DNA from: Lampris incognitus
Taxonomy: Eukaryota; Chordata; Actinopteri; Lampriformes; Lampridae
DNA length: 64,000 nucleotides
Assembly (NCBI RefSeq): GCF_029633865.1
Contig: NC_079216.1
Span: forward strand, 60,713,232 to 60,777,231
Direction of reading: 5' to 3'
The notes below the pieces were generated by a model. It worked only from the letters and a program-made list of their open reading frames with translations. It was not told where the DNA came from and did not search any database. This document shows positions 5,470-61,200 of this stretch, piece by piece. Positions within the stretch are counted from its first letter, which is position 1, and each line of letters starts with the position of its first letter. The translations under genes were made by a program, and so were the position numbers.

Positions 5470-7602
5470 TCAGCGGCTCGGCTGCTTGTAGTTTCCGTTG
5501 ATCTCCTCGGAGATGTTCACCGCCTCGGCCCCCAGCGGCAACCTGTCGCTGTACTCCGACCCCGCCTCAAACTCCTCCTGGTTGGTTTTGGACGAGGACC
5601 CGGGGATGGAGTCGGTGATCACGCTTCCCTCCGCCTCCCCCTCGCCGTCGGCCTCCCCCTCCCCCTCCCCCTCGCCCAGCTCGCTGGGGTTGAAGTTCTT
5701 GTCGGACTCCGCGAAAGACGCGCGAGCATCAAAGCCTCCCGCCATTTGTTTCTCCGCCTGATCCGGATTCTGAGCCTTCATGATCAGCTTGTACGTCTTT
5801 CCCTGATACTTGTACAGCAAATGGCAGCAGGTGGCCCCCAGCAAGGGGACGGTAGCCAAAACCAGAAGGAACGTGCTGACCACCACGATTATCAGCAAAG
5901 AGGGGATTTTCTTTCTCGTGGTAAAGACAACTTGAACTTGGCAGTCCTGACCCCCGTAGGTAAGACAGAGAGTGTAGTTGGTACCGGGCTGCAGACCGTG
6001 GAAGCGATACGCATTGACCCCTTCCTCTATCTTGGACCACTGGACCACCGAGTGTCCGTTGCTGGTGTGCACACAGAGGTATAGCATGTCCAGAGGAGCC
6101 TTTCTGCTTTCGGGTTGGTGCACTTTGAAAAGCTCTTTCACCACCGTGTCTAGGTTTGGCGTTTGGCTCAGGTGGAGGTTGGTCTTGCTGTTGGGGAGCT
6201 GCCTGGGATTGAGCTGTACCCTGGCCTCCGTCTCCGACACTTCCAACGCAATGACACCAAAATCAGAGGTGTATTGCTTGAAATCACTCAGGCTCAGGTT
6301 GAAGGCGTGATTGGAGATGTACTCGCTGCCATCGCTCACCCCACACTTCCCCGTAAATGGCAGCTCTTGTGAAGTGCCCCCAGGCGTATGTTTGTCGGTT
6401 GTACCTGATGAATTGCTCTTGGGCTTTTCTTCCGACTTGGGCCAGTTAATCACATTGTTCGTTGAGGTCTTGGGACCTACGGGTTTGGTAACAGATGGTA
6501 GAGTCTTGCCCACCGTAAAATCAAGCACCGAGTTGGTGGCATGTTTTTGGGTGCCAGCCAATGCCACACGAACACTGCCCTCTGCTCTACCCAACTCATT
6601 GACTGCAGAGCAACTATAGTTTCCATCTTCTTTTTTACTCATCCGGGGAATAATCAGGGTGCCATTTTGAAAGATGAGAAACTGAGGGTTGGTTGTTTTA
6701 TCACTGATGGGTGAATCATTTTTCTCACCAATGAGAGGTAAGCTAAACTGCAACTCTTGGTTTCCTGCCCTCACCTCCCAGCTGACTTCTGGTTTGGGGC
6801 TTCCTTTGGCCTCACAGTTTAAGATGACCATGAAGCCCTCATAAAGCTCCGTGTTTTCAATGTTGGGCTGGTATGTTATAGAGACACTTGGGGCTTTACA
6901 GTCCAGTTTGGGCATCTTTGTGACCAACGTACCCGCCAGGTGTTGAGGGGTCTCACACAAAATGGAATTCTGCTCAGGGACCGAGATCTTGGTTGTTGCG
7001 ATCCATTCCCGGAGCCATTCCAGGCCACAAGAGCAGGTGAATGGGTTTTTAAAGATCTGAAGGTGGGACATGGAAACGAGGGCACTGAAGGTACCCTCTG
7101 CGATGGTGGTGAACCGGTTGTTGTTAATGCGTAGTGACCTCAGGTCTTTGAGAGTTGAAAAGGCATCCTTGGGGAGGTTAACCATTTCATTGTTGTTCAT
7201 TTTCAGAAGCTGCAAGGCTGTAAGGTTGTGCAAATCCTCCCATGGAAAATTTACAATTTTGTTGTAGCTGATATCCAGGTTGCGCAGCTGGATCAGCGGG
7301 GCCAAGGTGTTGGTCTCGATGGTGACTATCTCATTGCTGGCCAACCAGAGAGAGGTAAGCTGGGTGACATTGACGAAGCTTTTAACTTTCAGTAATTTGA
7401 TCTTATTGGCAGAGAGACTTAGGGTGGTCACGTTCGAGGGTAGACCCACGGGCACCAGTTGCAGGTTTTTGTAAGTACATTCAGCAAACTGTTGGTCAAA
7501 TTTGTCCAGGCAGCTGCAGGACTCAGGGCAACACTGCACAATGCCAATTACAGCTGTCCACAGGGCTAGGAGCTGCAGGAGCCTTGTCGCCATTTTCAGC
7601 AT
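5470..7602 (-). CDS. islr2: ISLR2 (LINX), leucine-rich-repeat and Ig transmembrane protein
   Basis: ISLR2 is a single-pass neuronal surface protein that acts in axon extension and guidance, partly with Trk and Ret receptors (known from mammals). The coding region is one uninterrupted exon of 710 aa. It begins right after a TTGCAG acceptor at ATG 7600-7602 (MLKMATRLL); ATG 7591-7593 is an alternative start. In order, it has a signal peptide (about 1-25), a cysteine LRR N-cap (CCPESCSCL), five LRRs, an LRR C-cap (NPFTCSCGLEWL), a C2-type Ig domain ending near YSCSAVNELG, a spacer with N-glycosylation sites, a membrane segment (about 566-597, starting SLLIIVVVSTFLL) and a tail ending NQEEFEAGSEYSDRLPLGAE, as in human ISLR2. 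The tail has an acidic Gly-Glu tract (GEGEGEGEADGEGE). The length is close to the human protein (about 745). Confidence 0.95.
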   Translation of the reverse strand: MLKMATRLLQLLALWTAVIGIVQCCPESCSCLDKFDQQFAECTYKNLQLVPVGLPSNVTTLSLSANKIKLLKVKSFVNVTQLTSLWLASNEIVTIETNTLAPLIQLRNLDISYNKIVNFPWEDLHNLTALQLLKMNNNEMVNLPKDAFSTLKDLRSLRINNNRFTTIAEGTFSALVSMSHLQIFKNPFTCSCGLEWLREWIATTKISVPEQNSILCETPQHLAGTLVTKMPKLDCKAPSVSITYQPNIENTELYEGFMVILNCEAKGSPKPEVSWEVRAGNQELQFSLPLIGEKNDSPISDKTTNPQFLIFQNGTLIIPRMSKKEDGNYSCSAVNELGRAEGSVRVALAGTQKHATNSVLDFTVGKTLPSVTKPVGPKTSTNNVINWPKSEEKPKSNSSGTTDKHTPGGTSQELPFTGKCGVSDGSEYISNHAFNLSLSDFKQYTSDFGVIALEVSETEARVQLNPRQLPNSKTNLHLSQTPNLDTVVKELFKVHQPESRKAPLDMLYLCVHTSNGHSVVQWSKIEEGVNAYRFHGLQPGTNYTLCLTYGGQDCQVQVVFTTRKKIPSLLIIVVVSTFLLVLATVPLLGATCCHLLYKYQGKTYKLIMKAQNPDQAEKQMAGGFDARASFAESDKNFNPSELGEGEGEGEADGEGEAEGSVITDSIPGSSSKTNQEEFEAGSEYSDRLPLGAEAVNISEEINGNYKQPSR

Positions 7603-8345
7603 CTGCAAGCATAGGTGATGAGACGTTAGCGTGGACGTTTGGCATATTATGTTTGAATGCACTATTATTTAATATGCGGTGCTTAATATAAGCAAGTACA
7701 CGAATTCATTGCAACTTAATGCAAGCCAGATTATGTGTTGTGCAAAGGTTATGTAGCCCCACGCCGGGACACCACAGTTCAGCAATGCGGGGCAACTTGG
7801 AAATTATAAGGAGAAGGGAAAAGCAACAATGACGGGCCATTACACTTGCAGGATGCTCTATTCATTACACGAATGGAGGCATCCGAGTCTAAATTCCAAT
7901 GAATTTAATTTTTTCGAAAAGTTTTGCTGTTTTCACAGGCTGTTTGCCCTCTGCCCCAATAAATGGATAATTATTTTTTTTAAAAACTGAATATTTAAGG
8001 AGTTTGACCATCATTGCACACCCCATACATCAAGATATAGTTAATTGAGCCAGCTCCCTACTCGCGCGCTTCGAGGAAGTGCTCAGAGCCACCGAGTGCA
8101 CCCGTTATTTAAAACGTATCCCTGCAGTGGTTGTGTGACACCCCTACAACAATTTTCAATCCAACAGGCCTGCAGCTTTAGTCACAGATGCGCTTCCCCC
8201 CCCCTTTTTTTTCTTTTTTTTTTCTTGCGTATTGGCCAAAGTTGCAATAGACCTGATTTAGTTTCAACAACGGTTTTCTCCGAAATGTCACTGAGAGCTT
8301 TCAAAGTAACTGCTTTATCAGTCACTACTCATCGAATCGTCTTAC

Positions 8346-10257: not shown

Positions 10258-10392
10258 TGTAAACTACTAATAAGACACATTAGCCCCTAACCAACGGGTC
10301 TGGCCCTTTAGTCGAGCGGTTAGTGATGTCGCCTTGTGGTGCAGTACACTCCGTATCGAATCCCGCACCGGGCAAGAAAATAACCGGTTACA
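10258..10392 (+). mobile_element. Solo LTR of a miniature LTR element, tRNA-like
   Basis: A 135-bp unit starts TGTAAAC and ends GGTTACA, flanked by the perfect 4-bp duplication CTAT (10254-10257 and 10393-10396). It has the same length and sequence as the LTRs at 32,870-33,242 and 33,505-33,639. It contains GCCGAGCGGTTAG-like and ATCGAATCC-like boxes similar to tRNA A and B boxes. A fossil LTR with no coding capacity. Confidence 0.85.
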
Positions 10393-10799: not shown

Positions 10800-13700
10800 T
10801 CGAAGAAGGAAAGTTTCGCCCCACAACGGGAGGCGGGCGGTACCAGTGGTGATCTACGCGCACACACCCATTTGCAACCTTTCTAACAGCCGCCTCCAAA
10901 TGTACACAATCAAATTTGCTGTCACTGAGAAGGAGAGGTGGTCTCTGGTGCTGTCTCAGGTACGGCAGGAAGTAGGACGAGACGGGCAATTGGCCAGGTG
11001 TAGTTCCTGGTATTCACCTGAATCTCCGCTGCCCTGATCCTCCCATCTGCGCATTGGATGGCCTAGGCGACGCGGCCGATAGGCCAAATCGCTCTCGGGA
11101 GTTGTGGGTCCACGATCATGGCGACAACGCCAGGCTGTCGGGCAGCCGTCTCTTTCTGCCACTTGGTGCGTGTCTGGAGAGACACAAGGTAGTGCCTGAT
11201 AAACGTCCTCCAGAATTGTTCAGCCAGGACCTGTGTGTGTCTCCAGCGACGACGGCTTAACAGATCGGACTCCGGGTACACCACCTGAGGCAGCGAGGGG
11301 TCAGGCCGCCCCATCAAGAGCATGTTCAGTGTTACTGGGTCCGGGTCTGCGACGTCACTGGATACATACCCCAGGGGCTTTGAGTTCAGGATGCCTTCTA
11401 CCTCGATCACTACCGTGCGCAGAACTTCTTCTGTTACAGTCTGCATCTGGATCATAGCATACAGGGCAGCTTTGATCGATTTAATTTCCCTCTGTCATAC
11501 ACCACCGAAGTGAGGCGCACTTGGAGGGCTGAACACAAACTTGGCCTGATGTTTGGCCAGCTCTGACTTTAGAGTGGGATGCAAAGCCTTAAACGAGTCA
11601 TGGAGCTCCCTCTCACCTCCTTTGAAGTTTTTACCCTGGTTCAATAGAAGCTCCGCTGGTTTTCTTCTGCATGAGATGAAATGGCAGAGGGCCGTCAGGA
11701 ATGAATCCTGGTCCAGACTACTCAGAACATCTATGTGGACAGCGCGGGTGGTGAGGCACTTAAATAGTATGCCCCAACGCTTCTCATTATGCCGTCCAAC
11801 TCTAACCATGAAGGGCCCAGAACAAGCCATGCCTGTAGAGACGAAAGGTGGTTTCAACAGCCACAGACAGGCAGGGCAGGGGGTAGGTCTGCCATCTGTG
11901 GTAATGCAGGATTTGCCCTCCGTCTCTGACAATCAGGGCAGGTGTGCTGGTGCTGTTTTACAGCCTCTCTTTCGTTGAGGATCCAATACTTCCGACGGAG
12001 TTCTGCAAAGACCTGCTCTGAGCCTGGATGACGGCGATCTCGGTCAGCATCCTGAATGATGAGTTTAGTCACCTGGTGGACCGGGTCCAGGACTATGGGG
12101 TGAATGGTCTCTGGGTCCAGCAGGTCACAACGACGCAGTCTACCTCCAACCCGGACCAGCTTCAGTACGTTGTCATATTCAGGAGCTAGAGTGATCAAAC
12201 AACTGGTGGAGGGTACAGGTTTGTTGTCTGACAGGTGCTGGAGATCCTCAGTAAAGCAGTCTGTCTGGGCTTGTCTCAGCAGGTCTCTTTCAGCTTCTTG
12301 ATAATCTTTTGCAACTGGAGTGGACTGGTTACCAGCCACCCCGTGACGTGACTGCACAACAGTATCTACCATGTCTCTGAAACAAGCGAACTGGCTGGCG
12401 TTGATTAGGTGAGGAAGAGGAGCAGTGGTGATGGAGCCGCAGAAGGCAGCCTTACGCAGCTCAGTGCAATCCAAAGGCTCAGCCTCTGGCTGGGTAGACC
12501 AGTGCTGAGGCGACAGGCACAAGAATGCTGGGCCGCGGCTCCACCGGTTCTTCTCAGCCAGCTCCCTTAGGGTCTTCCCATGGGTGATGTCGTCTGTGAG
12601 ATTGTTTGCAGAGTCCACGTACCTCCAGGCTTGGGCTTTAGTCAGCTCCTGGGTCTCAGCGACTCTGGTGCCCACAAACACATTAAATCGGCAAGAGTCT
12701 GACTGGAGCCACGTGAGAACCGTAGTGGAGTCTGTCCAGAGCACCACATTGTGAAGCAACAGGGTGAGTTCACACTGCAACAGCGCTGCCAGCTGGGCGT
12801 CAGTCAGTGCCGCACATAACTCCAACCATGGCATTAACTGTTGGCGCTTGGGGGCCACTCTCGGCTGTGCTGTCAGGAAAGCTACCTCCACCTTCCCGCC
12901 TGGGCCCTCGGTGCACAGGTATGCAACTGAGCCGTAGGCCTTCTCAGAGGCGTCACAGAATATGTGGAGGCTTCTGGCAGAGCTGAGGTGATCCAGAGGG
13001 GGGCTTGTGTAGCACTGTGGCAGGATGATCTCTGGAAGGTGTTGCAGCTCATCTTCCCAGATAAGCCACGCCTTAAGGGTGTCGTCTGGCAGAGACGGGT
13101 CATCCCACACTGCACAATGACTTTGGACCGGGTGGTGAAGGGGACGAGGAAGCCCAGTGGATCATAAAGCTTTGCCAGTGTGTGGTAGATGGTCCTCATA
13201 GTCAGTGTGGGGCAGTCAGTGAGGTGACACTTGTAGCCAAGAGTGTCTGAGGTACAAAGCCATCAGAGTCTAAGTGCGAGCTCCTGTGGATCTGCCACTG
13301 ACTCTGTGAACCATAACTCACTACTCTTGAGATCTCGCCTCCTTTGGCAGGTGACTGGTGACTTCTGGGACATTGCTAGTCCACAGGTGCAGCTCAAACC
13401 TAACAGTGTCTTCAATTTGTCAACCAGCTGCCTGGCTGCTGTGGGAGAGGAGAGGCTTTGTAAGTGGTTATCCACATAGAAGTACCGCTCGATGGTCACC
13501 CAGACATCCTCCTCTGGCTAGCTGTGATCAGCCACATGCTTCTGTAGTGCAAATGTTGCACAGCATGGGCTACATGTGGTTCCAAAAGGGACGACCTGCC
13601 ACTCGTAGATGTTGGGTGGTGCCTCTCTGTTCAGGTCTCTCCACAAGAAACGGAGGAGGGGCCTACCTATCTTCTGGCAGCAACCTGACCTGGTGGAACA

Positions 13701-25900: not shown

Positions 25901-28900
25901 CTAAAAAATAATCAAATATGTTGATGCATTGCTCACAGAACACCACTTAACGCTCGAGTGTATAACCTTTATGAATGGCACCTGAAATGAACTGTACCTT
26001 TTTCGTGTCAAGTCTCATTGAATGGATGGCCGAGTGGTTGGAGAGATGAGTCTCAGAGATGATGAAAGCTTCGGAGTCAGACTCTAAGACTTTATGGATC
26101 TTGCCAGAGTCTTAACATAAGATAGAGGGAGAGAGAGAGCAATTTTCAGATGTGAATGTAGTTTTTTTTTTTGGTCCAATAGGAAGGATATGATAAAATA
26201 TCACTCGCCCCAAACAACAAAGGGCATTGGATGCAGACAATACAGGTTATTTGTCGATGTAAAATTAGCATGCGTCAAAGGCATCAACAGGAAGCCCTTT
26301 AAAATAGAGAGAGAGGACAAGTTTCAGTGGTCAAGGCTTTCCTAATCATGGCATACCAGTGGCAAGGAACAAGATGTTGTATATCCGCTGGTCTGCAGCT
26401 TGGACTCTGTCCACGGCTATCTTGGTATAGTTGTTGTTGCTTATGTAGAATGGATTAAGATGGTGCACTGAGTGAATCCAATCCTTCATTTCTGGATGAT
26501 CCTTTATGACGAGGACAGTGGCCAGCGGAAGGCTCCTGCTGTTTTTAACACACTGTGAGACATGGAGACACAAAATGTATTCCATTAGAAATATAAATCA
26601 CCAGTCTGTTTGCAATGAAGTGTGCAGCAATGTGTACGTTACTGTGCAACTCTAAAGGGGCAATGTAAACTGTGCAACTCTAAAGAGGCAATGTAAACTG
26701 TGTAACTGTTGGCTATGCAGGGTCAGCAGCTGTGGTGTATACAACTCAAGGTTTCTGAGGTTATATACAAAAAAAGCCACGAATAACCACTTCCTCGTTT
26801 CACAAAACGCTGAACATGTAAAATCCAGTCTTTCCTTCTTTTTTTAAAAAAAATCAAAGATGGTCCCTCGACGATAGCTTACGCTCGAATATGTATTCCG
26901 TAGCCTTCCACAAGCCGTAAGGGAAGAAAGAGAAAAAAACCATGAGCTCAGCTCAGGTAAATATTTTACAGTTTTTACCGCCTATATTTAAGGTCCTTTT
27001 CTACGTGAAACTGCCGTTTGAGGCACATACAGCCTGCAAGGAAAAAAAACAAAAAACTGGCAGAACCGAAATAAAGGCTTACAAAAATAAAGCAAAACCC
27101 CAAAAGAGGAAGTTCTCAGTCAGACAATGAGTCCGCACACGATTAGAAAATGGGGTTTTTAAAAAAAAAGACTGCTTACGGTTCCGGGCCTAGGGTTTGG
27201 GATGTCTTTTTGGTAGCCCTTGAAGGTGGAGCTCTCAAAGATCTCATCGATCTTTGCCATAGAATAGATGCAAACGGCCGTGGAATTCCTGAAAAAAGAA
27301 GAGCGAGGTCATTCGAGGTACCACAGATACCATCGTATTCACAGTTTTTGTCTCCGTCTGTACATTTTTAGCCCCGTACGCGCTCAGCACTGAATAGAGG
27401 AAATCCATGGTTGGATTATGAAAAAAGGAAAACTGAACACATGAATGAGGGGCACAAAAACTTTTTTTTTTGTTGGTTTGTTTGCTTTCCTCATGACCGT
27501 GACACCCATGGTAGATGTTGTTACTGTTGTGTTGTAGTGGTTATCCTCTACAGTGTCTTAGAATAGAATAGAACATTAGTTGTCATTGTACAAGCACAAT
27601 GAAATTTGACAGTGCAGTTCTTATCAGTGCAAAGATCAATATAAAAAGAATTAAAAACATAAAACACACACATTCATTTCTACATGCAACTGGACACCAA
27701 CATACTGCAGAAAATGTCACGAGTCAAGACTTAGCAGCATTTAATGCGGTTATGGCGTCGTTTTCTTTTTGTTTGCTTTATTGTTTTTATTTTTTATTAT
27801 ATTTCTATTGAGTCATTGTGAGATAGTTATTGAGAACGACATACTCTGATGTGTAAAAAAACTATAATTATTATTTAGGTTTATTAATTGAGCGGCTAGA
27901 AAAGCGCTATATAAATGCAATCCATCCATCCATCCGTCCATTAGCGAGGGGGGCAGCAAATTATAAGTAGTAACTTCCTCCTGCTCCTTTTCAAACATAT
28001 AATTTTTGTTGGATTCTCTACTGAGAATGCTTGTTGAATTCTTCTGGTTTGATCTTTATCATTTGTCATTTGGTTTTTTTTTTTACGCTTGGTCATTTTT
28101 TCTTTTATTTTGCATATTCGAAATAAAGACATTCGAATTTCAATTTACATTTCCTTGCTTTTCTTCCAAGGAGACGGACCAGGTTGCCAATTGCCTTCCC
28201 TTTACTTATTTGTTTAAAAAAATGTGGAGAATAAATTTACATGCAGGACCTAACTGTATGCTAGGGATACGCGTATTCCTAGAGGGTCACTGAAAATACT
28301 GTTTCTATTTTTTTTTTAAAAAAAAGGCTTTTATTTATGAAAGAATTGCTGCTCTTGTAAATATCCATTCCATTCACCAGACCACGTGAACTGTGATGTG
28401 TATCTCTGTAAGTGTGTGTGACTCCTCCGGGTGTAGTTGCTGATGATAGTCAAAAGGAAAATGTCTAACCAGCTACTTGTGAAAAGGGCGTAGACGCTTG
28501 TGTTGTGCCAGTCCTCGGCTTGCACCACGTAGACGTCCTGAAGGTGGTTAAAATAGAGTGACTCCTTCGGAAACCCACACACAAGCCGGGCCTTTAGGAA
28601 AGTAGTCCATATGTTCTGGAAGAATCTTTTTGACCCACCCTCATCAACCTGCAAAGTCACATTTTCAGAGTTAAAATATAGCCGCAAGCAGCGATTCCAT
28701 GACTCAAGCCAACACAGACCGTTAGAAGTTGAAAGCTTCAACAGCTTAATTAAAAATATCCACCAAGTTTGGTGATGTTTGGACTAACTGTCATTGATTT
28801 ATGGCCAAATTTGCGCCAGGCCCATTCCACATGTTTGGAACTGGTGGCACTCCCTATTGAGGAATTTCAAAATAGTTTTGAAATTGTTATGAAACACGCC

Positions 28901-31900
28901 CTGTGAGTTTTGTAATGATTAGACAAACAATTTCTAATTTATAGTCTGATTTGTGTTATGCGGCACTTTTTTTTTTTTTGCATTTGGAGCGGCCCCCTAG
29001 TGGTCGATTTGAATGAAACTTTCAGGGTTCCAGGTACTTAATATGGACATATCCTACAAGCTTTGTGACCCAGCTGTTGTTGACTTTGGTCTATTTATGT
29101 GCTGAGCCACGCCCTTTTAAAGTTCACTGGTCAAGATCTTGAAAACTAAATAAGATTCCGGTGTGGGAAGATGACGGCGCGAATTCACGTTTGCAGCGGC
29201 CTCACCCAGTACCGTCCATGCAGTGTCTTCGTCCACATCTGCATCCAAGTCTGTGTCTTCATTTGGTGGCTGGGGGAGCTGGCGCTGGATCGGCTGGGAG
29301 AGCTTGGTCTGCTGCGTCCTGTGGGCCCAGGGACCATGGTCCTGCTTGGAGCTGCACCCGAAGAGGTAACACTGAGGGCTGCCTGACAGGATGCGGAAGC
29401 GTGACAGGCTAAGCTAACCACTAGCCCACGCAGACCAGCAGTTCCAATGGTGCCGAGGGATGGCGCGGATTTCCTGTGCGCCTATGGGCTGCTGCTGGAT
29501 GTGATGAACCGCCACTTGATCAATGCCGTTTCTTTCTGTTCGTACATGTGTATGCTGGGAGGAGCGGGTACGACCGGGCAGTCCAACATGCTTGCCACCA
29601 CAGATGAATATCAATCCCTTTTCGCTGAGCTTCCAGACCTCACTGCACCTGTTTTCTTGTCAGCAGTGGCCAAGCACTTGGTAGAGCAGTACCCCCAGTC
29701 TACGCACGCGCCTAGACCCGGCCAAGCTTGCCATCACCAGAGAGGAGTTCGCTGCTATAGACAGCCTTCCCCCCTGCACATGTTAACGAAGGCTGACGGC
29801 GGTTGGCGCCCATGCGGTGATTACCGCCGCCTCAACAGTGCCACAACCCCCGACCGCTACCCTGTCCCGCATATTCAAGATTTCTCCACCCACCTGGCGG
29901 GGAATACCATTTTCTCCAAGGTGGACTTGATGCAGGGCTACCACCAGGTGCCAGTCCACCCTCAGGATGTGCCGAAGACAGCAGTCATCACGCCATTTGG
30001 ACTCTTCGAGTTCCTGCAGATGCCCTTCGGCCTCAAGGGAGCAGTGCAGACGTTCCAGTGGCTGTGGACTCTGTGCTGCAGGACATGCCATTCTTGTTCA
30101 TGTACTTGGACAACATCTTCATAGCCAGCACATCCGCGGAGCAGTACCTGGCATACCTCCAGCGGCTGTTCAAGCGGTTCAGTGAACACGGGCTCATCAC
30201 CAACCCAGCCAAGTGCCAATTCGCCCGGTCAGCCATAGACTTCCTCGGACACCGAATCACCAAGGAAGGAGTGGTTCCACTCCACGCCAAGGTGGACGCC
30301 GTGGCCAACTTTCTGCGCCCCAGGACCATGAAGTCCCTGCACGAATTCCTGGGTGGATCACATTATGCAGCCTCTATATGAGACCCTGCAGGGTAGAAAC
30401 CCCAACGGTGTGGTAGACTGGTCCCCAGAGACGGACAAGGTCTTCGAGGATGCTAAGGCTGTGCTGGCTAATGCCGCCTTGTTGGCGCACCCATCGCCCA
30501 CTGCCCCAGTTGCCTTCACAACCGATGCATCTGACTCTGCTGTAGGAGCGGTATATGAGCAATGGGTGGGTGGGGCCTGGCAGCCACTTGCCTTCTTCAG
30601 TCGCAAGCTACGCGACAATGAAAGTACAGTACTTTCGGCTGGGAGCTCATGGGGCTGTTTCTCGCCATCCAGCACTTCAGGTTCTTGCTGGAGGGCCGCT
30701 GTTTCACCGTGTATTTGGACCACAAGCCGCTAGCGTCAGCCATGGCCAAGGCTGAACTGCCGAAGACTGGGCACCAGCAGCGCCAGTTCTCGGAGATCTC
30801 CAAGTTCACCACAGACATCCAGCATGTGGCTGGGAAACACAACTTCGTTGCTGACTGTCTCTGTTACCGTACACCTGGGTCTCGACTACGCTGACATGGC
30901 TGACCTGCAGGCCTACCGGTCAGTGGACACTGGACTATAGCTGCAGGATGTGGTGTTCGGCGCCACACTCCTCTGCGACGTCTCCACGGGTCAGACTAGA
31001 CCCATGGTTCCCACTGGGTGGCACCAACTCATCTTTGACATGGTCAACAGTCTCTCGCACCCGGGAGTGAAGCCATGTACGAAGTTGGTGGCTGCCAAGT
31101 TCATCTGGCCTGGGCTGAAGATGGACGTGAGGGACTGCGTGAGGTCCTGAGTGGCATGCCAGTGCGCCAAAGTCCACTGTTACACCAGAACCCCATTGGC
31201 CCCTTTTCTGGTTCTGGAGAGATGCTTTGACCCATGTCAACGTGGACCTGGTGGGGCCCTTTCCCCTCTCCCGGGGGTTCTCCCACCTCCTCACTATGGT
31301 GGACAGAACCAGAAGGTGGCCTGAGGCAGTCCCACTGTTGTCGACCTCGTTGGCGAAGGTGGCCTGGGCGTTCATTGGATCCTGGGCAGCCTGGTTTGGC
31401 ACTCCATCCGACCTCTGCTCAGACCGGGGTCTCTCAATTCATATCTGAGCTCTGGACAGCCGTCGCAGAGGGCCTGGGAATACAACTCCATGAGTGTTTC
31501 CATCGCTCCATGAAAAACGCTTTGCGGGCCATCCTCACCGATGGCAGGGGACTTCATTCCCATCACCACAACTCCCTGGTCCACCTCCCACCAGTGGACC
31601 GCGCTCCTGAGGGATGCTGGCGCCTTTGCTCCTGTCCCCACGTCAAGACACAGCCTACCTTATGTCCATGTTCCTATGGACATACTGTTGGCTGGGTATA
31701 CCCGGCATGATGCACATCGGCCATCCCTGCAGCCCACTTATGACGGGCCCTTCTGCATCCTGGAGATGGGGACCAAATACTTCACAGTGGACTTCGGGGC
31801 GAAGTCGGCGCACATCTCGGTGGATCGCCTGAAGCCGGCCCATCTTGGACTTGGACAGGCCGGTGGAGCTGGCATTTCCCGCCATGGTGTGGATGCCCCC

Positions 31901-34900
31901 TCCCCGGCTCCTGACTTGGCTGCTTATCGCCCTGCTGTCCCTGTTTCCACCCCTGCTCCTGTTAGGCGGAGCCACTATGGGTGCCCTTTTTGCCCCCTGC
32001 ATCGTTGAATGTTGTCTCATTTTTATTTTATTTTTTTAGAATTCGGGTGGGAAGGGGGGTGGCGGCCTCACATAAGAACTTGAGACATTCACCGGGTGGG
32101 GGTGTGGTTTTTGGGGCAATCGGCTAGCTGGTTAACGCGCTACATGCTTGTGTGTCCTGTGTTTAGGTGGAAGGGATAAAATGACCCGGCAAGGGTCTTA
32201 AAAGAGAAACCGTCTCGTTGTCTCTTAATTCCTGTGCTGCCACAACAGCACAAATAATGTTCAAAGCAAGAAACAATCTACTACCGAGTAAGATACCAAA
32301 GATATTCTCAGACAGAGAAGGGGAATATAATTTAAGAGGGAAGTTAAACTTCAAGAAATCACGTGTTCGTACAACTTTGCACGGGCATTTAAATCTGTGG
32401 GGTAGAATTGTGGAACAGTCTGAGCATGGAAACAAAGTACAAACCATACGCAGTTCAAGAAGACGCACAAAGGACGGGTCCGCGGTGGTGTAGCGGTCTA
32501 AGCATCGGCTTTGTGTCGACGCAGTTGCCCACTGGGGACGGGGGTTCGCGCCTCGGTCTCGTCAGGTCCGACTACGGCCGGACTCGATGAAACAGCAATA
32601 ATTGGCAACGCTGTCTGCGGGAGGGGGGCGGAGTCGGCTTGTGTTCGTCACATGAGTGCGTCTCTGGGTGTGTCGGAAAAAGCAGTAGTTCGGCCTGGAG
32701 TCGCCCTGACACGGAAGTGGCGAGGCGTCTCCTTCGAGACCTCCGGCCGGAGAGACGCAGTTAGCGAAAGCATGCAGTACGAGGGTGGGTGTCTGAACTA
32801 AATTAGGGCTCGACTGGCCACTAAATTGGGAGAAAATCAGAAATAAAATTGATTTAAAAAAAAAAGAAGTGTAACCGGTTATTTTCTTGCCCGGTGCGGG
32901 ATTCGATACGGGTTGTACTGCACCACAAGGCGACATCACTAACCGCTCGGCTAAAGGGTCAGACTCGTTAGCTAGGGGCTAACGTGTCTTATTGATGGTT
33001 TACAGTCGTCACCCTCCCCGGAAGCGCGACCTCGCGCTTTGTTATTCCCGCGCTCCGAAGAGACTTCTGAGGATCTGCGCACTTCCGGATCCCACCGCTG
33101 CCACCAATGTAACCGGTTATTTTCTTGCCCGGTGCGGGATTCGATACGGGGTGTACTGCACCACAAGGCGACATCACTAACCGCTCGGCTGAAGGGTCAG
33201 ACCCGTTAGTTAGGGACTAACGTGTCTTATTAGTAGTTTACAGAAGTACAAAGGACTGATTATCAAGAGATATAGGGACGTTGAAGAGTTGTGTTAACTA
33301 AGTTTTATTTATCTCTAAACATTTCTTCTTACATTTTTTCCACTTTCTGTGGCACCGAGTGGATATTTGGGTAGCACTGAGGTCTGTTTCTTCTTGGTAC
33401 TTTTTCCCCGTATTGTTCACAGTAGTTGAGAGTTTGTATTGTGCAGCACAACTTGCATTGGATTTGAACTATAAAGTACAGTGGGAGTTGAGTTTGAAAT
33501 GTATTGTAACCAGTTATTTTCTTGCCCGGTGCGGGATTCGATACGGGGTGAACTGCACCACAAGGCGACATCACTAACCGCTCGGCTGAAGGGTCAGACC
33601 CGTTAGTTAGGGACTAACGTGTCTTATTAGTAGTTTACAGTATTAACTTAAGAGTAGTTGAGAAGGGGTAGGAAAAAAAATAAGTGTATACTTCCTCCTC
33701 CTGCTTTTCGAACATGTAACAAATAATCTGATGGATACGGAGATTTGTTGATCAATTCAGATTATTGGCAACGGCTTATCTGTATATTATTTCGAAATAA
33801 ATCATCATAATAATAAACCAGCACAAAAAAAAAAAACAAAAGGGTTCAATGAGCCCTAAAAAAATGAAAGAGAGACGTCACAGAGGTCAGTCGACCACTG
33901 TATTGTAACGTGCATGGATAAGTAGACACGCTGGTCCTTGGCTAATGGGTCGGACCCTTTAGTCGACTGGTTAACGTAGTCGCTTGCGGAGTCAGAGATA
34001 GGGGCTCGCGTCCCGGCTGTGGCGGTTCCCGGACTGCCCCCCCCCCCCTAATTGGCTGCAGTATATGATTCAGATGTGTTGGCTGTTCATGACACAGGGG
34101 GTCGTGGTCTGTTTTGATACACGTGGTGAGAATGGGAACTCCGGCAGCTAGGACTGCACCACCACGTGGAATTTGATCCAGGTGAATTCCTGGGCCGCAA
34201 GCACCTCCTGGCAAGAGCTTGGCGTCGTCAGGCCGCTGACGCCCAGGAAACTGAAGGTATCGGTGTCGGCGGTGCATCTGATATGCCTTCCCAGAACAGT
34301 GCTGGCAAATCAAGGCACGTCACCTTCGCAACGCTATAACCCGTCCTGAGGAAAGTGGAACAGTATCGGCTTTTCAATGCCACATCTGGTCCAATACGAA
34401 CAAAGAGAGATAAATGGCAGGGCGACCTTACAGATGGGTTCAGGGTGTAATCAGCACCAGGCCGGCAGCTACCTTTCCATTTGGCCTCACGCAGACCCGA
34501 GACGAGACCAGGAATGAAAACGAATGTGAGATGGGCGTCCAGGCAGCGTGGCGGTCTGTTCCGTTGCCTACCAACACAGGGATCGCCGGTTCGAACCCCC
34601 GCGTCACCTCCGGCTTGGCCGGGCATCCCTCCAGACACAAGGGGGGATAGCGTGATCCTCCCACGCGCTACGTCAACTCCTCCAGGTGAAAAGAAGCGGC
34701 TGGCGACTCCACGTGTATGGGATGGGATGGGATGGGATGGGATGGGGATGGGGATGGGGGTGGGGGTGGGCATGTGGTAGTCTGCGGCCCTCCCCGGATC
34801 GGCAGAGGGGGTGGAGCAGTGGACGGCTCGGAAGAGTGGGGTAATTGGCCAGATACAATTGAGGAGGGGGGGTAAAAATCCACAAAAAAAGCAAATGAAT

Positions 34901-35945: not shown

Positions 35946-38900
35946 AGAGAGGGTCATGGGAAAGATAAACCAAATAGGGAAGATCCGCCAAGTCAAGTTT
36001 ATTTGCATAGCATATAATCACAGTCTCACAGGGCCATTATCCAAAATAATCACACTGACATAGAGTAACACACACCACACACACAATTGTTACACTTTAG
36101 ACTGCAATAAGGAAGAATTCCACAGTAAATCATCCCTCCGGAAATTCGCCACTGTGAGAAAGAGATCCCTAGTCTGGGAAAAGGATGAGTCAAGAGTCAA
36201 AACAAGATGTCTGCTGACCTGACACCCAGTTGTCATACATCCATAAATTGGCTCTACCGCCGGCTTTCCTTCGAAATTGTAGAGATCTTCCATCGCTGCC
36301 TAAAGGTGCCGCTGTGTACAGGTCCCCATCTAAAAATGGCAGAACAGGGTCACGCCAGAACAAGCAGACAGATTCGATTATTCAGCCTATTTCTCGAAGT
36401 ATGCACGGGTTTTCTGGCTTTTTCTACACGGCTCGATGCGGTCATGTAAGTCCGCCAGGGCCGTGAACACGGAATCATACTTTCGACGGCAAGTAACCCG
36501 GCCTATAGCGATACACGTACACTGTATTTCACATACCTGCTGTGAGGGACAGTGAGTTCTGGGTGTAAGCAAATGGAGATATGCCAGTGCCTTCATAACT
36601 CTCCACTATCTCACGCGACTGGTTGTGCACCCGGGAATACTGTTGAATGAACACACGACAATAGTTGCAGGGAAAACCATATGGAATCCCACAGAAATGC
36701 TGCAGCATATTTTCATAATTGGCTTTGGAAATATTTTTTTTAAAAAAAGTTGAGGATACAGAACAGGATCAGGATCGGAATACTTTCTGCCTCCCCCGCG
36801 GGGGAGGAAGAAAAACAGTTACACCCCGACAACCCAAATAAAACCGTGACGCCCAAACACTATAAATCAAAGCCCGGACCGGTTTAAATAAAGTGGGGGT
36901 TTTTTTTTTTGATTTCTATTACCCAACCAAACAACCACAAACTGTAATAGGCTCTTAGCCCTTTTATTGCCAGTAAGCCAAATGGGCCGCCATAAGCCAC
37001 CGGGGGATGAAATTTGAAGACAGGTGGCAGACAGATGACACATTAAACGGGACACATAGTCGTAACACATATTCTTTAGTCCACGCTACAGAGAGGGGAA
37101 ACAAAAAGGGGGGCATACGCACCAGTTTCCAACACTTTGGCTTGTATCCGTTGGTTCCACAGACAAACAAGCTATCCTGGAACTCCTGAATCACAGTGAC
37201 GACGTTGTAACAAAGGCCCTGACAACACAGAGTTGGTCGCAGTCACATCACAACACGACATCACTCCACACCTGTGGACGTTTCAAAACGACCTGAACGG
37301 CAACACAGCCGTGCACCGGTCTTATCACATCTCCCAATACTGTCGCGACACTTACCTCCGAGCACTCCTGCTGGGCTGTCGTTCTAAGTGGGAATTCCTG
37401 CAACCAAGCAGTGAAAAGATCAACTACATGTCACATTGTTAAAAACACTCAACCGTAGGGAAAGTGCACAGCAGATGAGGAGCAAAATAATCCAGTGAGT
37501 CGAGTAAATTCTCTACGACAGTGTTTCTCAACCGGGGGTCCGTGGTGGAATTGAAAATAAAATATCTTTAAAAAAAAGATCCTATGACATTTATAGAAAT
37601 AGGATTATTTTACTCAAATGCAACTGAGACCTTCATCTACCTAAACTATAAAGGGTAACAGGACTTTTTTCTCTAATTACATCTGTTTCACAAGTGTCAT
37701 TTATTGTATTTTAATAAGAGATCTCGCTCCCGTTTGCATTGTTAAAAGTTACTGCATAAAAATTCTGTTGTTCCATATATCTGAAAGTTACTGAATACAT
37801 ATTCTGTTTTGTTACATATATCTGAAAGTTACTGAATACATATTCTGTTTTGTTACATATATCTGAAAGTTACTGCATAAGAATTCTGTTTTGTTACATA
37901 TATCTGAAAGTTACTGAATACATATTCTGTTTTGTTACATATATCTGAAAGTTACTGAATACATATTCTGTTTTGTTACATATATCTGAAAGTTACTGAA
38001 TACATATTCTGTTTTGTTACATATATCTGAAAGTTACTGAATACATATTCTGTTTTGTTACATATATCTGAAAGTTACTGCATAAGAATTCTGTTTTGTT
38101 AACTATATCTAAGTTACAACTGAAAGCTCTTATTTTTGCCCCAAAGAGTGAATAAATGCTATAATGCAATTTAAAATGCAGTTTCTACTGTTTCTATCAA
38201 ATTCCACCCCCCTCCCCCAAGATCAGGTGGAGGGGTCCTCAGGGTAGATCAAAAATACGCAGGGGGGTCCAGGACCCCAAAAAGGTTGAGAACCACTGCT
38301 CTACGAGACAGTACAAGCCTGTTTCACGCCATAAGCAACCGTCAGCTGTCCAATAATAATGCCAATAATAATTTTTAATCAACAAATTTATATATATTCA
38401 ACAGGTGAATTAAAACAAACATTCATTCAGTTAAGTTTTCACTGATCAGCTGGTACGTTAAAACGTGATTCACCGCCGCCCCCAAAAGCTTCTGTTATAT
38501 CTGCAGCTGGTCAACTGAGCGGAAAAACGCCAACCCAACTGGCCCTGAGTAACGACAGTGGAGTCGAGGTCAAAACAAGTCTCTCCATCAGACAGCTGGT
38601 GGGGTTTCGTGCCCCCAGGAGGGCCGTATCGTCACGGGGAAAGAACACACTCAATATTCATCAGCACCAGGTGATGGTGCAGAGTCAAACATGACCAACG
38701 TTTTTAAGCAACAAATGTCATCTCTGGACACACAGCTGGCATAAATACCGCCTTTCACATATTTGTTATGCACGATACGTTTGTTTCTGCTATTGTGTAA
38801 CTCTTGTTCGTGATAATAATGTGGCGTGTCTGCTGTGGTCCACGGGTGCATTGTGCTGCAGAGTTCAACGTGTACCAAAAACAAACTCCACCGGCCTTGG

Positions 38901-45000: not shown

Positions 45001-46040
45001 GGTAACACTTTAGTATGAGGAACATAGTTACCATTAATTAGGTGCTTATTAGCATGCAAATTAGCAACATATTGGCTCTTAATTGGTCATTACGTACTCA
45101 TTAATGCCTTATTCTGCATGGCCTTATTGTACAACCAGTAAGCCATTAACTATGAGTTTTCCCTCTATAACCTCAGAAGTATTGCTTATTAGTAGTACCA
45201 TCTCAATATGCTTCGCTTAGTATGGACTTTATAAGGTGGTGGTACCACAAGAAGAGTTATTCTCCCTTACTAGCACTTAATGAATATGATCTGTTCTTAC
45301 ATAACAAAACACAAAACTACAAGTGTTCATAGTGTTAAATTACTCTAAATTAAGTTTTTGTTACTTAGAATATGTTCCCCATACTAAAGTGACATCTTGA
45401 TCATTACTAATTCACTAGTAATTAAGTTTTTGTTACTTAGAATATGTTCCCCATACTAAAGTGACATCTTGATCATTACTAATTCACTAGTAATTGTTTT
45501 TGTTACTTAGAATATGTTCCCCATACTAAAGTGACATCTTGATCATTACTAATTCATTAGTAATTAAGTTTTTGTTACTTAGAATATGTTCCTCATACTA
45601 AAGTGACATCTTGATCATTACTAATTCACTAGTAATTAAGTTTTTGTTACTTAGAATATGTTCCCCATACTAAAGTGACATCTTGATCATTACTAATTCA
45701 CTAGTAATTGTTTTTGTTACTTAGAATATGTTCCCCATACTAAAGTGACATCTTGATCATTACTAATTCATTAGTAATTAAGTTTTTGTTACTTAGAATA
45801 TGTTCCCCATACTAAAGTGACATCTTGATCATTACTAATTCACTAGTAATTAAGTTTTTGTTACTTAGAATATGTTCCCCATACTAAAGTGACATCTTGA
45901 TCATTACTAATTCACTAGTAATTAAGTTTTTGTTACTTAGAATATGTTCCCCATACTAAAGTGACATCTTGATCATTACTAATTCACTAGTAATTAAGTT
46001 TTTGTTACTTAGAATATGTTCCCCATACTAAAGTGTTACC
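45001..46040. mobile_element. hAT-type MITE with internal satellite
   Basis: The ends GGTAACACTTTAGTATG and CATACTAAAGTGTTACC are inverted repeats. A perfect 8-bp duplication, ATGACATC, lies at 44993-45000 and 46041-46048, which indicates hAT. About ten copies of a 68-72 bp unit (start AAGTTTTTGTTACTTAGAAT) fill 45,345-46,036. Each unit includes a copy of the sub-terminal sequence ATGTTCCCCATACTAAAGTG. Some units lack the first 4 bp. The element starts 7 bp after the COMMD4 AATAAA. Confidence 0.9.
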
Positions 46041-46048
46041 ATGACATC

Positions 46049-46786
46049 CTCATATCGTTGTCCTGTTGCAATTCCTACATATCCCATAATCCATTGCGGC
46101 AGTTGGCTCCGCTGTCCCAACAATGTCCCTTACCTTTTAATGCAGCCGGGAACGTACGAGTGGAATAATACCCCGGCTTTTACGATTCGTTGCACGGCGT
46201 GACAACATTTAAACGGAGCAAAAGATGGAGCAACGACCGAAATCCGTGTCTTAGGTCGGCCATTGCCGAACGAGTTACGTTACACAACGAGCTCGTTACG
46301 CAAGCTGTTTAGTAACAATCCCACGTGCGGGGGGGTTTTTAAACCGGGCACCGTCGCAGACGCGCACGTTCCATCTTCCGCGCGCAGGTTGGCCAGGTGA
46401 GTTCTGCACGTTTGCGTGGGCGCGTTGCCTCTGCAAATACACGTGTGACTCAACACAACATACAAGCATGAGAGTTTTAGCCCAATGGTCACTTAACGCG
46501 ACTTTTACTTTGCTTTGGAGCTAAAACCTTTTGTTTTTTTAAGTGCATGTGACGTAATCAAACCTACCACTGTAGCTGCACGTCTGCCCGGCGCGGGTTC
46601 TGCGTATTGCGTGAGATTTGCGGCGAGCTGCTACACATTATGACGTGCGTTTCACAGCTTTGCACGACGCGAAAGTGTGCCTGGTCATTTCTGACTCGGC
46701 TGTTCTCCCAGTGCAAATATATCCCGTCTGTTCGTTTCTTGCAGCTTTGCTTTGTTTTGCAAGAGCGGGTCAGCGGTTAGAGCACA
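46049..46786 (+). other. NEIL1 upstream region and 5' UTR
   Basis: A CpG-containing stretch between the MITE and the NEIL1 ATG. No TATA box or ORF is convincing. The promoter of NEIL1 should lie here, by position only. Confidence 0.4.
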
Positions 46787-49700
46787 ATGCCGGAGGGACC
46801 GGAGCTCCACCTGGCCAGCCTGTTCGTCAACAGGGTGTGTAGCGGAGTGGTGTTCACGGGACCGGTCCGAAAGTCCGAGGTCAGCAAGAGCCCCGACGTG
46901 CCCTTCACCTGTGACGCATACCGCGTCACGGCCTCGTCCAGGGGGAAGGAAGTGAAGCTCACGCTGACGCCCGTCAAGACTGACGGCAGCACGCCGGGAG
47001 TCGAGGCGAGGCCGGCGGACCGGCCCATGGACATTGTGTTCCGCTTTGGCATGTCGGGCTACTTCCGGTTCACCGCCGAGGACGAGCTTCCCAAGCACGC
47101 GCACCTGCGTTTCCGTTCCAGCGAGAAGCCCTGCCGAGTGCTGAGTTTCGTGGACGCGCGCAGGTTCGGCAGCTGGGTACCGAATGGCACCTGGCAGACC
47201 GACCGAGGGCCCTGCATCATGTTTGAGTACAAGAGCTTCAGGTTGTTATTTTTTTTAACTCTTAAGTATTTGATTAAAAATGTTTACTTGTGGGACTATT
47301 GTACTACGCAGAGCTGCACATGGACACATGTACACATTGTTAATTTGCACACCCATGTAGCAAGTTATGTCATACCCATCCCAGATAGCATCCGGATGTG
47401 GGCCACTTCAGGCAGTGATGCGGCACTGGTGGCCTTCTTCTGGCCCTGGCAAAATGGACGTGAGCCTGAAGTGGCCCACATGTATAATAGCAAATATGGC
47501 CCAACTATGCCAAATCAAATGTGGGCCTTTTTTTGGCGAAGATGCGTTGCTCTCGGCAACATGTAATTGGATGTGACCCCGAAGTGGCCCGTGTGGTAAA
47601 TGGTGAATATGGCCCAAATATCACAAAACAAATATGGGCCACCTTTGGCAAATATGTGGCACATGAGGCATTGCTATGGCTTGGTTCTGGCCCAGATCTG
47701 GCAGACAGGACCGGACCACCTAAGTGCCATCATTCCACACAGTATGTGGGCCGGATGAAAGAAAGATGAGTCGGGTGTGGGTCGGGTCCAGGACACAGCA
47801 GTTTTGCTGTCTGGGAATTTGCACACCCATGTAGTAAATTATGTCATACCCATCCATTCACAGTTTATTAAGGAGGGCTGTACATATTTGCACGCTTTCC
47901 TTATGACACATCGTATAGTTGTTTTTTTACTTACTTTTTGCTTCATATAATCTCTACATTTTGCGATACATTATTTGCATTAAGATTTTATTCTTTTCAG
48001 TTTTGGGAGTTTTTCCCACTCGGCATTTCACTGCACTTACCATATGTGACAAATAAAAACCCCGAATCTTTACATTTGCAGAGAGAACGTCTTGTCACAC
48101 CTGTCAGACCGTGCCTTTGATAGGCCCATTTGTGAAGTTCTACTGAATCAGAAATACTTCAACGGTATCGGGAACTACTTGAGAGCCGAAATTCTTTTCA
48201 GGTGATTTTGTTCAACTTACTGCACCACCAAACTGCCATTTTCCGTATTTGGCATTGTCATGACCCAAACAAAAGGACACTTCCTGGTATGACTGAAACC
48301 ATTTATTCAGAAGTGGAATAAATGGCTCTTTCGCCTCAACCCTGACTTGCGAACATCCTGTGGGAAGCAGATGAATCAGGAGGCCTTTCTTGAGAAAGAA
48401 CAAACCTTTAATTGAGTCTTTCACCACACCACAGATTGAACATCCCACCCTTTGTGCAGGCAAGGACCGTGTTGGAAGGCCTCGAGTCAGAAGATCCGTT
48501 TGTAAAAGGGGAGCCTATGAAAGAGGAGTCTGCAGACACAAAGGTGAAAGTACAAAGCAGGTTCTCTGATCGTCACAATACTCCGGACATTGATCCTGTT
48601 GATTTTTTTTTTTTAACACCAACACACTGTTCTGCCCCATAAGACCTCTCACAGGAACTCAAAGAAAAAACTGGAAGTGGAGACTGCTGACCTGCTAAGA
48701 TTGTGTCATACTGTTCCTCTGGAGGTAGTGAACTTAGGTAGGCCACAGTGTCTACTCGTTGTTACTACACTTTGTTTTTTGGACATGGAGGAATATGCTA
48801 AATGGGTTGCTTCTGCAGAATTTATAGCTGATTCAGTCTGACCCCAAGATATGTTTCACTGTGATGCAGAACTAGTTTCTCCTTAAATTGATGATTTTGA
48901 CTTTTTTTTGTGTTCTTTTAAAACTTTTAAGGTGGGAAGGGCTATGATCCAGAGAAATCCGACTACTCCGACTTTCAGGCGTGGCTTCGATGTTATTATG
49001 TGGATGGGATGAAATCTATCCGGGACCACAACGGGAGAACTATGTGGTTCAAAGTAAGTTGTGGGCATGACATAATGTGTTCTCTGTCGGGGGGAATTTC
49101 AGGTATCGTGGAAAAACTGAAAAAAATCTGTCTTAATTTCAGGGGGATCCTGGCCCCATGGCACCAAAAGGTATGGAATATGTTGACTGAATTGAAAATG
49201 AGTATCAGTTTACATGTAAAGTAGTGGGGGGGGGCAGTCTCGTCATTATCCAGATCAGATTTCTTGCATCCCATTAACCTCCATAGATTCCAAATCACCC
49301 AAGGCCAAGAAGAGGATAAAGAAAGAGGATGACCACGATTACGTCGGGAAGAAAAAGGTACAAATCAGCACTCGTTTCCATTCGACTAAAGCGTTGGAAC
49401 ACTACAGACAGTAACCGCCAGTTTGAACTTTTTAGGTGCCCAGACGTCGCTCTAAAAGCACCACAAAGGAAAATGCTGTCAAATCACAGATGGGGACAAA
49501 CAAGGAAAAAGTTGAGCCTCTGAGGGGAACGAGATCTAAGAGACGGATGTCTGCACCAAAGAAGCAGGAAGACGATGTGCATGAAAATAAACATCGCACA
49601 CCACGCAAGAGAAAATGCAACAGTGCCGAGAAGGCCGATGGAACGAGGTCGACAGCAGGTCACTCCCACTTAGAAATGAAACAGCAACTAAAACATGCAG

Positions 49701-59895: not shown

Positions 59896-60110
59896 GGCAG
59901 TAAACAGCGTCAGTCACAGCATCCGCGTACAGTGAGCTGCTGACGCGCCGCCGGTGAAAAGACCCGGAAGTATTAACGCACCGCGCAATGTCCCTTCCGG
60001 GATGTGGCCGCTAGATGTCAGCGCCGTCACGCAGCGAGGCGCTGGCCGCGGAGGCTGAGAGACGACGCTCCGTTGCGAGCCGCGCCTCGCAGTTTGCATT
60101 CCGGCATTCC
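59896..60110 (-). promoter_or_regulatory. MAN2C1 5' flank
   Basis: GC-rich, CpG-containing DNA directly upstream of the MAN2C1 start codon, with CGCGCCGCCGGTG and GCCGCGGAGG blocks. A TATA-less promoter is expected here by position. Confidence 0.4.
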
Positions 60111-61200
60111 GACAGGAAAGCGTTCCAAATTCTACAATTCCAACAGAAAGGAATTCCAAATTCTACAATTCCAAAAAAGAAAAGAAAAAGACAACGGCAT
60201 TCTTATTTCTACGAGGCCAACAGAAAAGCATTCCAATAAAAAAGAAAAAAGGACGTCATTCTAATTTCTAAACTTCCATCAGAAAAGCGTGCCAAATTCT
60301 ACAATTCCAACAGAAAGGAATTCCGAATTCTACAATTCCAAAAAAAGAACGGCATTCTTATTTCTACGAGGCCAACAGAAAAGCATTCCAATAAAAAATA
60401 AAAAAGGACGTCATTCTAATTTCTAAACTTCCGTCAGGAAAGCGCTCCAAATTGTAAAATTCCAACAGAAAGGAATTCCAAATTCTAAAATTCCAAAAAA
60501 AAAGAACGGCATTCTTATTTCTACGAGGCCAACAGAAAAGCATTCCAATAAAAAAGAAAAAAGGACGTCATTCTAATTTCTAAACTTCCGTCAGGAAAGC
60601 GTTCCAAATTCTACAATTCCAACAGAAAGGAATTCCAAATTCTACAATTCCAAAAAAGAAAAGAAAAAGACAACGGCATTCTTATTTCTACGAGGCCAAC
60701 AGAAAAGCATTCCAATAAAAAAGAAAAAAGGACGTCATTCTAATTTCTAAACTTCCATCAGAAAAGCGTGCCAAATTCTACAATTCCAACAGAAAGGAAT
60801 TCCGAATTCTAAAATTCCAAAAAAAGAACGGCATTCTTATTTCTACGAGGCCAACAGAAAAGCATTCCAATAAAAAATAAAAAAGGACGTCATTCTAATT
60901 TCTAAACTTCCGTCAGGAAAGCGCTCCAAATTGTAACATTCCAACAGAAAGGAATTCCAAATTCTAAAATTCCAAAAAAAAAGAACAGCATTCTTATTTC
61001 TACGAGGCCAACAGAAAAGCATTCCAATAAAAAAGAAAAAAGGACGTCATTCTAATTTCTAAACTTCCGTCAGGAAAGCGTTCCAAATTCTACAATTCCA
61101 ACAGAAAGGAATTCCAAAATTCCAAAAAAAGAAAGAATGGCATGCTAGTTTCTAAGATGCCAACAGAAAATAATTCCAAATTCTAAAATTTCTACAGAGA
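60110..61200. repeat. Higher-order minisatellite
   Basis: Units of 177, 145 and 157 bp, marked by the variants AAGCGTTCC, AAGCGTGCC and AAGCGCTCC, occur in that order twice. The marker G falls at 60120, 60297, 60442, 60599, 60776, 60921 and 61078. The higher-order period is exactly 479 bp. Sub-units of about 20 bp share GAATTCCAAATTCTA and AACAGAAAAGCATTCC. Confidence 0.9.

Follow-up and report, generated by a model that had tools for sequence, protein, structure and literature searches.

The 373-bp element at positions 32870..33242 (minus strand) of the window, by which we mean the whole 64,000-nucleotide stretch analysed here, is very probably a Helenus-type TRIM, a non-coding element with Pol III-type boxes in its LTRs that was copied in trans by a young Ty3/Gypsy element of about 6 kb residing in the same genome. 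Copies of the TRIM carry 4-bp duplications and a primer site for the host tRNA-Leu-AAG, share their LTR tips and that primer site with the helper, and are joined to it in integrated hybrids. TRIMs with tRNA-like LTRs, vertebrate ones included, were already published as a class in 2024, and the window element is a member; what the host genome adds is a set of helper-TRIM hybrids that point to the helper and to the step at which the two were mixed. The identity of a TRIM helper is usually inferred from short sequence likeness, and hybrids with target duplications of their own, together with copies carrying the primer tRNA, point more directly to helper, primer and reverse-transcription step. Such a TRIM-helper pair is also a countable genomic record of co-packaging, and it offers a natural way to ask if RNA made by Pol III can be taken up by an LTR-retrotransposon particle.

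In the orientation of the element, on the minus strand throughout, the 5' LTR (33108..33242, TGTAAAC...GGTTACA) is followed by a non-coding interior of 103 bp (33005..33107) and the 3' LTR (32870..33004), the two 135-bp LTRs being 5.9% diverged. The interior carries the primer binding site TGGTGGCAGCGGTGGGAT (33089..33106), which is a perfect complement, 18 of 18 nucleotides, of the 3' end plus CCA of a host tRNA-Leu-AAG gene identified by ARAGORN (L108); a sense match of the interior to tRNA-Leu, considered separately, was within chance. By eye, a polypurine-tract-like stretch GGGGAGGGTGACGAC adjoins the 3' LTR (33005..33019), and GGGGAGGG, seven bases off that LTR, is a polypurine tract candidate. 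The whole is bounded by the duplication GAAG (32866..32869 and 33243-33246). Two solo LTRs of the same family lie at 33505..33639 (minus strand, duplication GTAT) and 10258..10392 (plus strand, CTAT), and the three other LTRs of the family in the window are 94-99% identical to the copy at 33108. The initial annotation, which had recognised three insertions of one 135-bp LTR with perfect 4-bp duplications, one of them complete and primed by tRNA-Leu, was thus correct in its coordinates, its duplications and its primer. The GAAG site looks to lie within the apparent 3' duplication of a SINE-like repeat with an A-run at 32477-32869, so the TRIM would have been inserted after that repeat; by eye the left flank of the repeat is GAAGACGCACAAAGGAC and the bases after the TRIM are GAAGTACAAAGGAC. 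Parts of the SINE-like repeat recur inverted at 367-571 (92%) and 212-318 (87%).

The assembly containing the window comprises 1.48 Gb in 537 contigs, and all copies compared come from this host genome. Copy numbers are rough, being counts of first-look candidates with the best 40 scored per search: the 135-bp LTR gave 1963 with one query (the best 40 all at least 96% alike) and 2435 with another, and the interior gave 244 (best 40 scored). Exact patterns of 28 bases of LTR and 26 of interior had no match in viral contigs, nor did an exact pattern of 24 interior bases in genome contigs. From 68 loci and the window, some loci overlapping and repeats being removed by sequence, we obtained 80 chains from TRIM copies selected because they resemble the window copy closely, namely 34 full LTR-interior-LTR elements, 18 solo LTRs, four three-LTR arrays and one five-LTR array, the remainder being truncated or split. 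Both ends were available for 63 chains, the other 17 being left out of the duplication count; 40 of the 63 have a perfect 4-bp duplication and 15 more match at three of four bases. By class, duplications are perfect in 28 of 38 pairs, 9 of 18 solos and 3 of 7 members of the script's array class, two of which are pairs whose LTR aligned in two pieces; among the five true arrays, three are perfect and two match at three of four bases. A 5-bp duplication occurs in none of 73 elements, and slid controls matched in 10 of 1460 cases. In the 40 perfect duplications T predominates at base 2 (32 cases) and A at base 3 (30 cases), and LTR-LTR differences within the 34 full elements range from 1.5 to 9.8%.

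The helper emerged from the primer site. Preceded by [CGT]CA, the site occurs 57 times in the genome, and 17 of 20 such sites fetched have a TRIM LTR upstream (truncated in L128), the other three having a related inverted LTR (L119), a helper-LTR remnant (L120) or neither (L125). A pattern aimed at different LTRs upstream of the site yielded one TRIM with a deletion. With a different next base the site occurs 225 times, the first 100 of which were listed; 10 of the 20 fetched, 16 of which have G as the next base, carry another LTR (L135, L140, L141, L143-L149), mostly ending CCTCGGTTACA, that belongs to the helper. This LTR is 254 bp long and has 512 first-look candidates in the genome; among the best 40 scored, 16, counting the locus of the query itself, show no difference across 150 bp, and in two cases the LTRs of a pair are separated by 6.0 kb. 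Reverse transcriptase (RVT_1, 6.7e-39), RNase H and an integrase zinc-binding domain are encoded in a 2.2-kb stretch of one copy, in the order of Ty3/Gypsy, and the helper is a young element of about 6 kb of this type. In the helper copy that was read, a stop codon separates the two pol frames; downstream in L147 lies the beginning of an open frame, visible for 70 residues.

At their LTR tips the two elements have TGTAA and CGGTTACA in common, and also the 19 bases that come next; about 26 identical bases around the primer site are common to both. The initial annotation had suggested looking for an autonomous element with the same LTR and primer site; the helper has the same LTR tips, primer site and 4-bp duplication (TCAT, by eye, in the one copy checked), but outside tips and primer site the two elements give no blastn match at 1e-4. 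A Gypsy-like open reading frame at 29447-30124 of the window was dropped as a candidate helper, there being no LTR pair in 26000-33500 and no second such primer site in the window.

The link between the two elements comes from hybrids, which we counted across the whole genome as exact 34-base patterns spanning the primer site, so that the count covers breakpoints at that site. The helper LTR is joined to the TRIM interior at 87 exact junctions and to its own interior at 38, and the TRIM LTR is joined to the helper interior at six. Of the 87 hybrids 35 were fetched (20 at every fourth place of the list and 15 more from between); the helper LTR is complete to its first base in 32, and none of the 35 fetched stretches contains a second helper LTR in the same direction. 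Duplications could be scored in the 23 that have both the helper 5' end and the TRIM 3' end, the 12 others being left out: 13 are perfect, four match at three of four bases and six at only one or two, one of these (L195) continuing as an array, against a slid control of 5 in 460. Because 13 of the 23 two-ended hybrids have a perfect 4-bp duplication, we conclude that units with two different LTRs were integrated whole. Flanks differ between hybrids, except among L168, L194 and L203 and between L170 and L204 (one shared 11-mer). The first three have in common a composite in which a helper LTR is combined with a portion of the TRIM interior and with a helper LTR in inverted orientation, and they are not independent of one another; this composite may itself be multiplying. 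Hybrids form no cluster of their own by TRIM sequence: the nearest neighbour of a hybrid was another hybrid in 1 of 27 cases (shuffle mean 9.2), in a test biased towards TRIM copies as neighbours since these were selected by their similarity to one query. Five copies have three parts, helper LTR - TRIM interior - TRIM LTR - helper interior (L139, L188, L189, L192 and L205, the helper LTR of L205 being truncated). Four of the six TRIM LTR-helper interior junctions lie within such three-part copies, and the other two (L190, L191) are TRIM LTR - helper interior. Among open-licence papers, judged by title and abstract opening, we found no account plainly on helper-TRIM hybrids of this kind.

Whether the TRIM is made by Pol III turns on the LTR itself. 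In the 5' LTR an A-box-like motif CAGCCGAGCGG occupies LTR positions 52-62 (33181..33191, minus strand) and a B-box-like motif GTATCGAATCC positions 96-106 (33137..33147, minus strand, 9 of 11 matching), and the pair noticed earlier in each LTR is indeed present in all four window LTRs, with 2-3 mismatches over 22 positions. The pair is confined to the sense strand, its spacing of 33 bases in the window copies is tRNA-like, and dinucleotide shuffles of the four LTRs were as good in 0, 0, 1 and 2 of 2000 cases. Such figures speak against the view that TRIM and helper alike are Pol II products, with the box pair a decayed remnant or a coincidence lacking promoter function, as does the helper LTR, which has nothing similar (1472 of 2000 shuffles as good). 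The consensus TRGYNNAGYGG is matched in full by the A box in 97 of 116 distinct copies, T stands at LTR position 52 in 97% of aligned copies, and the window copy of a second, related family has the pair as well (8 of 2000 shuffles as good). The Pol II reading gains, in turn, from the B box, which in 99 of the 116 distinct copies has two mismatches to GGTTCGANTCC, both of them core bases, from AATAAG near the LTR start, by eye a possible poly(A) signal, and from the tRNA finders: ARAGORN recognised no tRNA in the window, and cmscan, which was run with no positive control, had no tRNA match in 32400-34100 at E values up to 5. The tRNA-like module proposed in the initial annotation stands as A and B boxes at tRNA-like spacing, with no wider likeness to a tRNA detected: copy 10258, aligned to a whole tRNA-Val and to the host tRNA-Leu, scored within the range of chance (92 and 127 of 1000 shuffles did as well). 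Since no tRNA is recognised and the whole-tRNA alignment is within chance, the Pol III reading comes down to the two boxes. TTTT is absent from the window LTR and interior read in the sense direction, as it is from 766 of 1000 shuffles, and present in 4 of 116 LTR copies; its absence, not being unusual, would permit full-length transcription by Pol III but says nothing by itself. On the boxes, we put transcription of the TRIM by Pol III at about even odds, and regard production by Pol II as a serious possibility that falls a little short of an even chance.

The boxes and the high copy number are also what a plain SINE would display, its duplications arising by chance, but that identity for the 135-bp unit is next to impossible: SINEs have an A-tail or LINE tail and duplications of variable length, whereas the analysed genomic copies already contradict the SINE reading with duplications fixed at 4 bp, paired copies around one interior, a primer site and TG...CA ends. 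The initial annotation had favoured an LTR element over a SINE, and the fetched copies, with their paired LTRs and duplications, leave the TRIM reading unrefuted. For the hybrids, the alternative is DNA recombination between genomic copies in place of reverse transcription, for which the stretch of identity around the primer site would offer a substrate and to which the six two-ended hybrids with poorly matching duplications could be owed. Joining two separate insertions in this way is not expected to leave a perfect 4-bp duplication around the product, which 13 of the 23 have at a frequency far from the slid control, and we consider DNA recombination quite unlikely as the source of the hybrids.

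That the hybrids arose in reverse transcription agrees with traces of the primer itself. The tRNA-Leu query also hits dispersed 3' halves elsewhere in the genome, and nine such loci were read (L153-L161), six of them, L153 and L155-L159, being assigned. In L155 a TRIM LTR leads through the primer site into the reverse complement of tRNA-Leu for 48 bases and then into TRIM interior, GGAG at the switch point being common to both sides; L156 likewise runs from TRIM LTR into tRNA-Leu for up to 43 bases, the exact end being blurred by a dozen bases that the tRNA has in common with the inverted TRIM interior after it. Behind helper LTRs the same read-through reaches base 47 in L153 and base 44 in L159. 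In L155, L153 and L159 it ends 1-5 bases before the anticodon, which occupies positions 35-37 in L108, and the base adjoining the anticodon is the canonical G37. In tRNA-Leu this base is methylated and hinders reverse transcriptase. These four copies resemble plus-strand strong-stop products whose synthesis went beyond its normal end and on into the primer tRNA, and among open-licence papers, by title and abstract opening, no account plainly on primer-tRNA read-through in genomic copies was found. In L157 and L158 tRNA-Leu stands behind other LTRs of related kind (by eye), running past the anticodon in L157. Several of the nine loci are 3' halves of tRNA-Leu directly behind LTRs and ending near the anticodon, and the dispersed halves could possibly be fossils of primer tRNA copying.

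Ordinary reverse transcription gives a copy two LTRs of the same sequence, and a unit whose LTRs differ but which is flanked by a single target duplication therefore implies an intermolecular switch before integration. Helper RNA and TRIM RNA would enter one particle, where tRNA-Leu would prime both. The simplest switch would be at the second strand transfer: helper plus-strand strong-stop DNA, ending in the copied primer site, would anneal to a finished TRIM minus strand and give helper LTR - TRIM interior - TRIM LTR, so that transfer at the primer site predicts the order seen in the hybrids. A short TRIM minus strand would be finished early and be the likelier acceptor, which would explain the asymmetry of 87 against six junctions. 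A plus strand that copied the whole TRIM and again read into the attached tRNA could transfer once more, and such repeated transfer may have produced the five copies in which helper LTR, TRIM unit and helper body follow one another, and perhaps the tandem arrays; pure TRIM arrays could also come from unequal recombination between LTRs. The data fit a scheme in which the two RNAs are packaged together and plus strands pass from one molecule to another at the primer site. A fuller account, which we hold to be as likely right as wrong, is that a parasite RNA probably made by Pol III shares particles with its Ty3/Gypsy helper, itself made by Pol II, with such frequency that exact junctions now link the helper LTR more often to the parasite body (87) than to its own (38); hetero-LTR insertions would come from plus-strand transfer between molecules at the shared primer site, and the TRIM arrays and the five three-part copies from serial transfer. 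Recombination within an LTR retrotransposon family is reportedly the subject of an earlier study.

The window TRIM has two direct LTRs, is short and non-coding, and carries A and B boxes, a tRNA primer site and 4-bp duplications, all of them Helenus criteria. The sections of Kojima (2024, PMC10886601) on which we draw describe Helenus as TRIMs whose LTRs resemble tRNAs, occurring in fungi, animals and a plant; the animal members have 4-bp duplications, and those of vertebrates use tRNA-His, -Leu or -Lys as primers. Helenus is also mentioned in a 2026 meeting report (PMC12859917). The likeness to the present element extends to small size, lack of coding capacity, Pol III-type LTR boxes, high copy number and tandem arrays, to tRNA-Leu among the vertebrate primers, and to Gypsy, suggested in the same sections as the likely animal helper from primer-site likeness (PMC10886601). 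One member, LTR-11_DR of zebrafish, has 5575 LTRs and tandem arrays; we liken it to the TRIM by its description in those sections and not by sequence. A difference lies in the B box, whose core is GTATC in the main family here as against GGTTC, a core that the sections call conserved, not defining; they likewise leave Pol III transcription open and do not mention hybrid insertions (PMC10886601).

A vertebrate TRIM combining Pol III-type LTR motifs with LTR-style integration, as the initial annotation had proposed, is supported by the duplications, the tRNA-Leu primer site and the Ty3/Gypsy hybrids; as a counterpart to plant Cassandra it is not new, Helenus having already been described (PMC10886601). 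Cassandra shares a Pol III-type promoter in a TRIM LTR (PMC10886601) but carries 5S rRNA sequence, whereas the LTR here has no Rfam match, and Rfam gave none in the window nor in 32400-34100. For the hybrids the nearest likeness is to the template-switch complexes of grasses (Sabot and Schulman 2007, PMC1950507), in which two elements were fused in reverse transcription with duplications around the product. In those four cases, two from Triticeae, one from rice and one from maize, the switch was proposed between R regions and the outer LTRs match each other (PMC1950507). In the present hybrids the two elements meet at the primer site and each contributes one of the outer LTRs, and the exact junctions number 87.

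The second, related and diverged family is represented in the window by a solo LTR at 33904..34060 (plus strand, duplication GTAT, ends by eye), which starts TGTAACGTGCATGG and contains a C-run. It has 3041 first-look candidates in the genome (best 40 scored), and in most aligned copies its B box is the better GGTTCGCGTCC. A paired copy (L078) has the primer site TGGTGTCAGAAATGGGAT and seems, as we read it, to be inserted in the first bases of an 18S rRNA gene. Other retroelement fragments in the window include RVT_1 at 29447-30124 and 62102-62746, and Peptidase_A17 (Pao type) with an integrase zinc domain at 11854-13110. Tandem arrays lie at 45348-46133 (period about 70-72 bp), 37686-38177 (about 41 bp) and 60107-61197 (about 155-167 bp), and two host genes are present, one at 5470-7662 for a protein with LRR and Ig domains, presumably ISLR2-like, and one at 46787-47566 for a Fapy-type DNA glycosylase that we take to be NEIL1-like.
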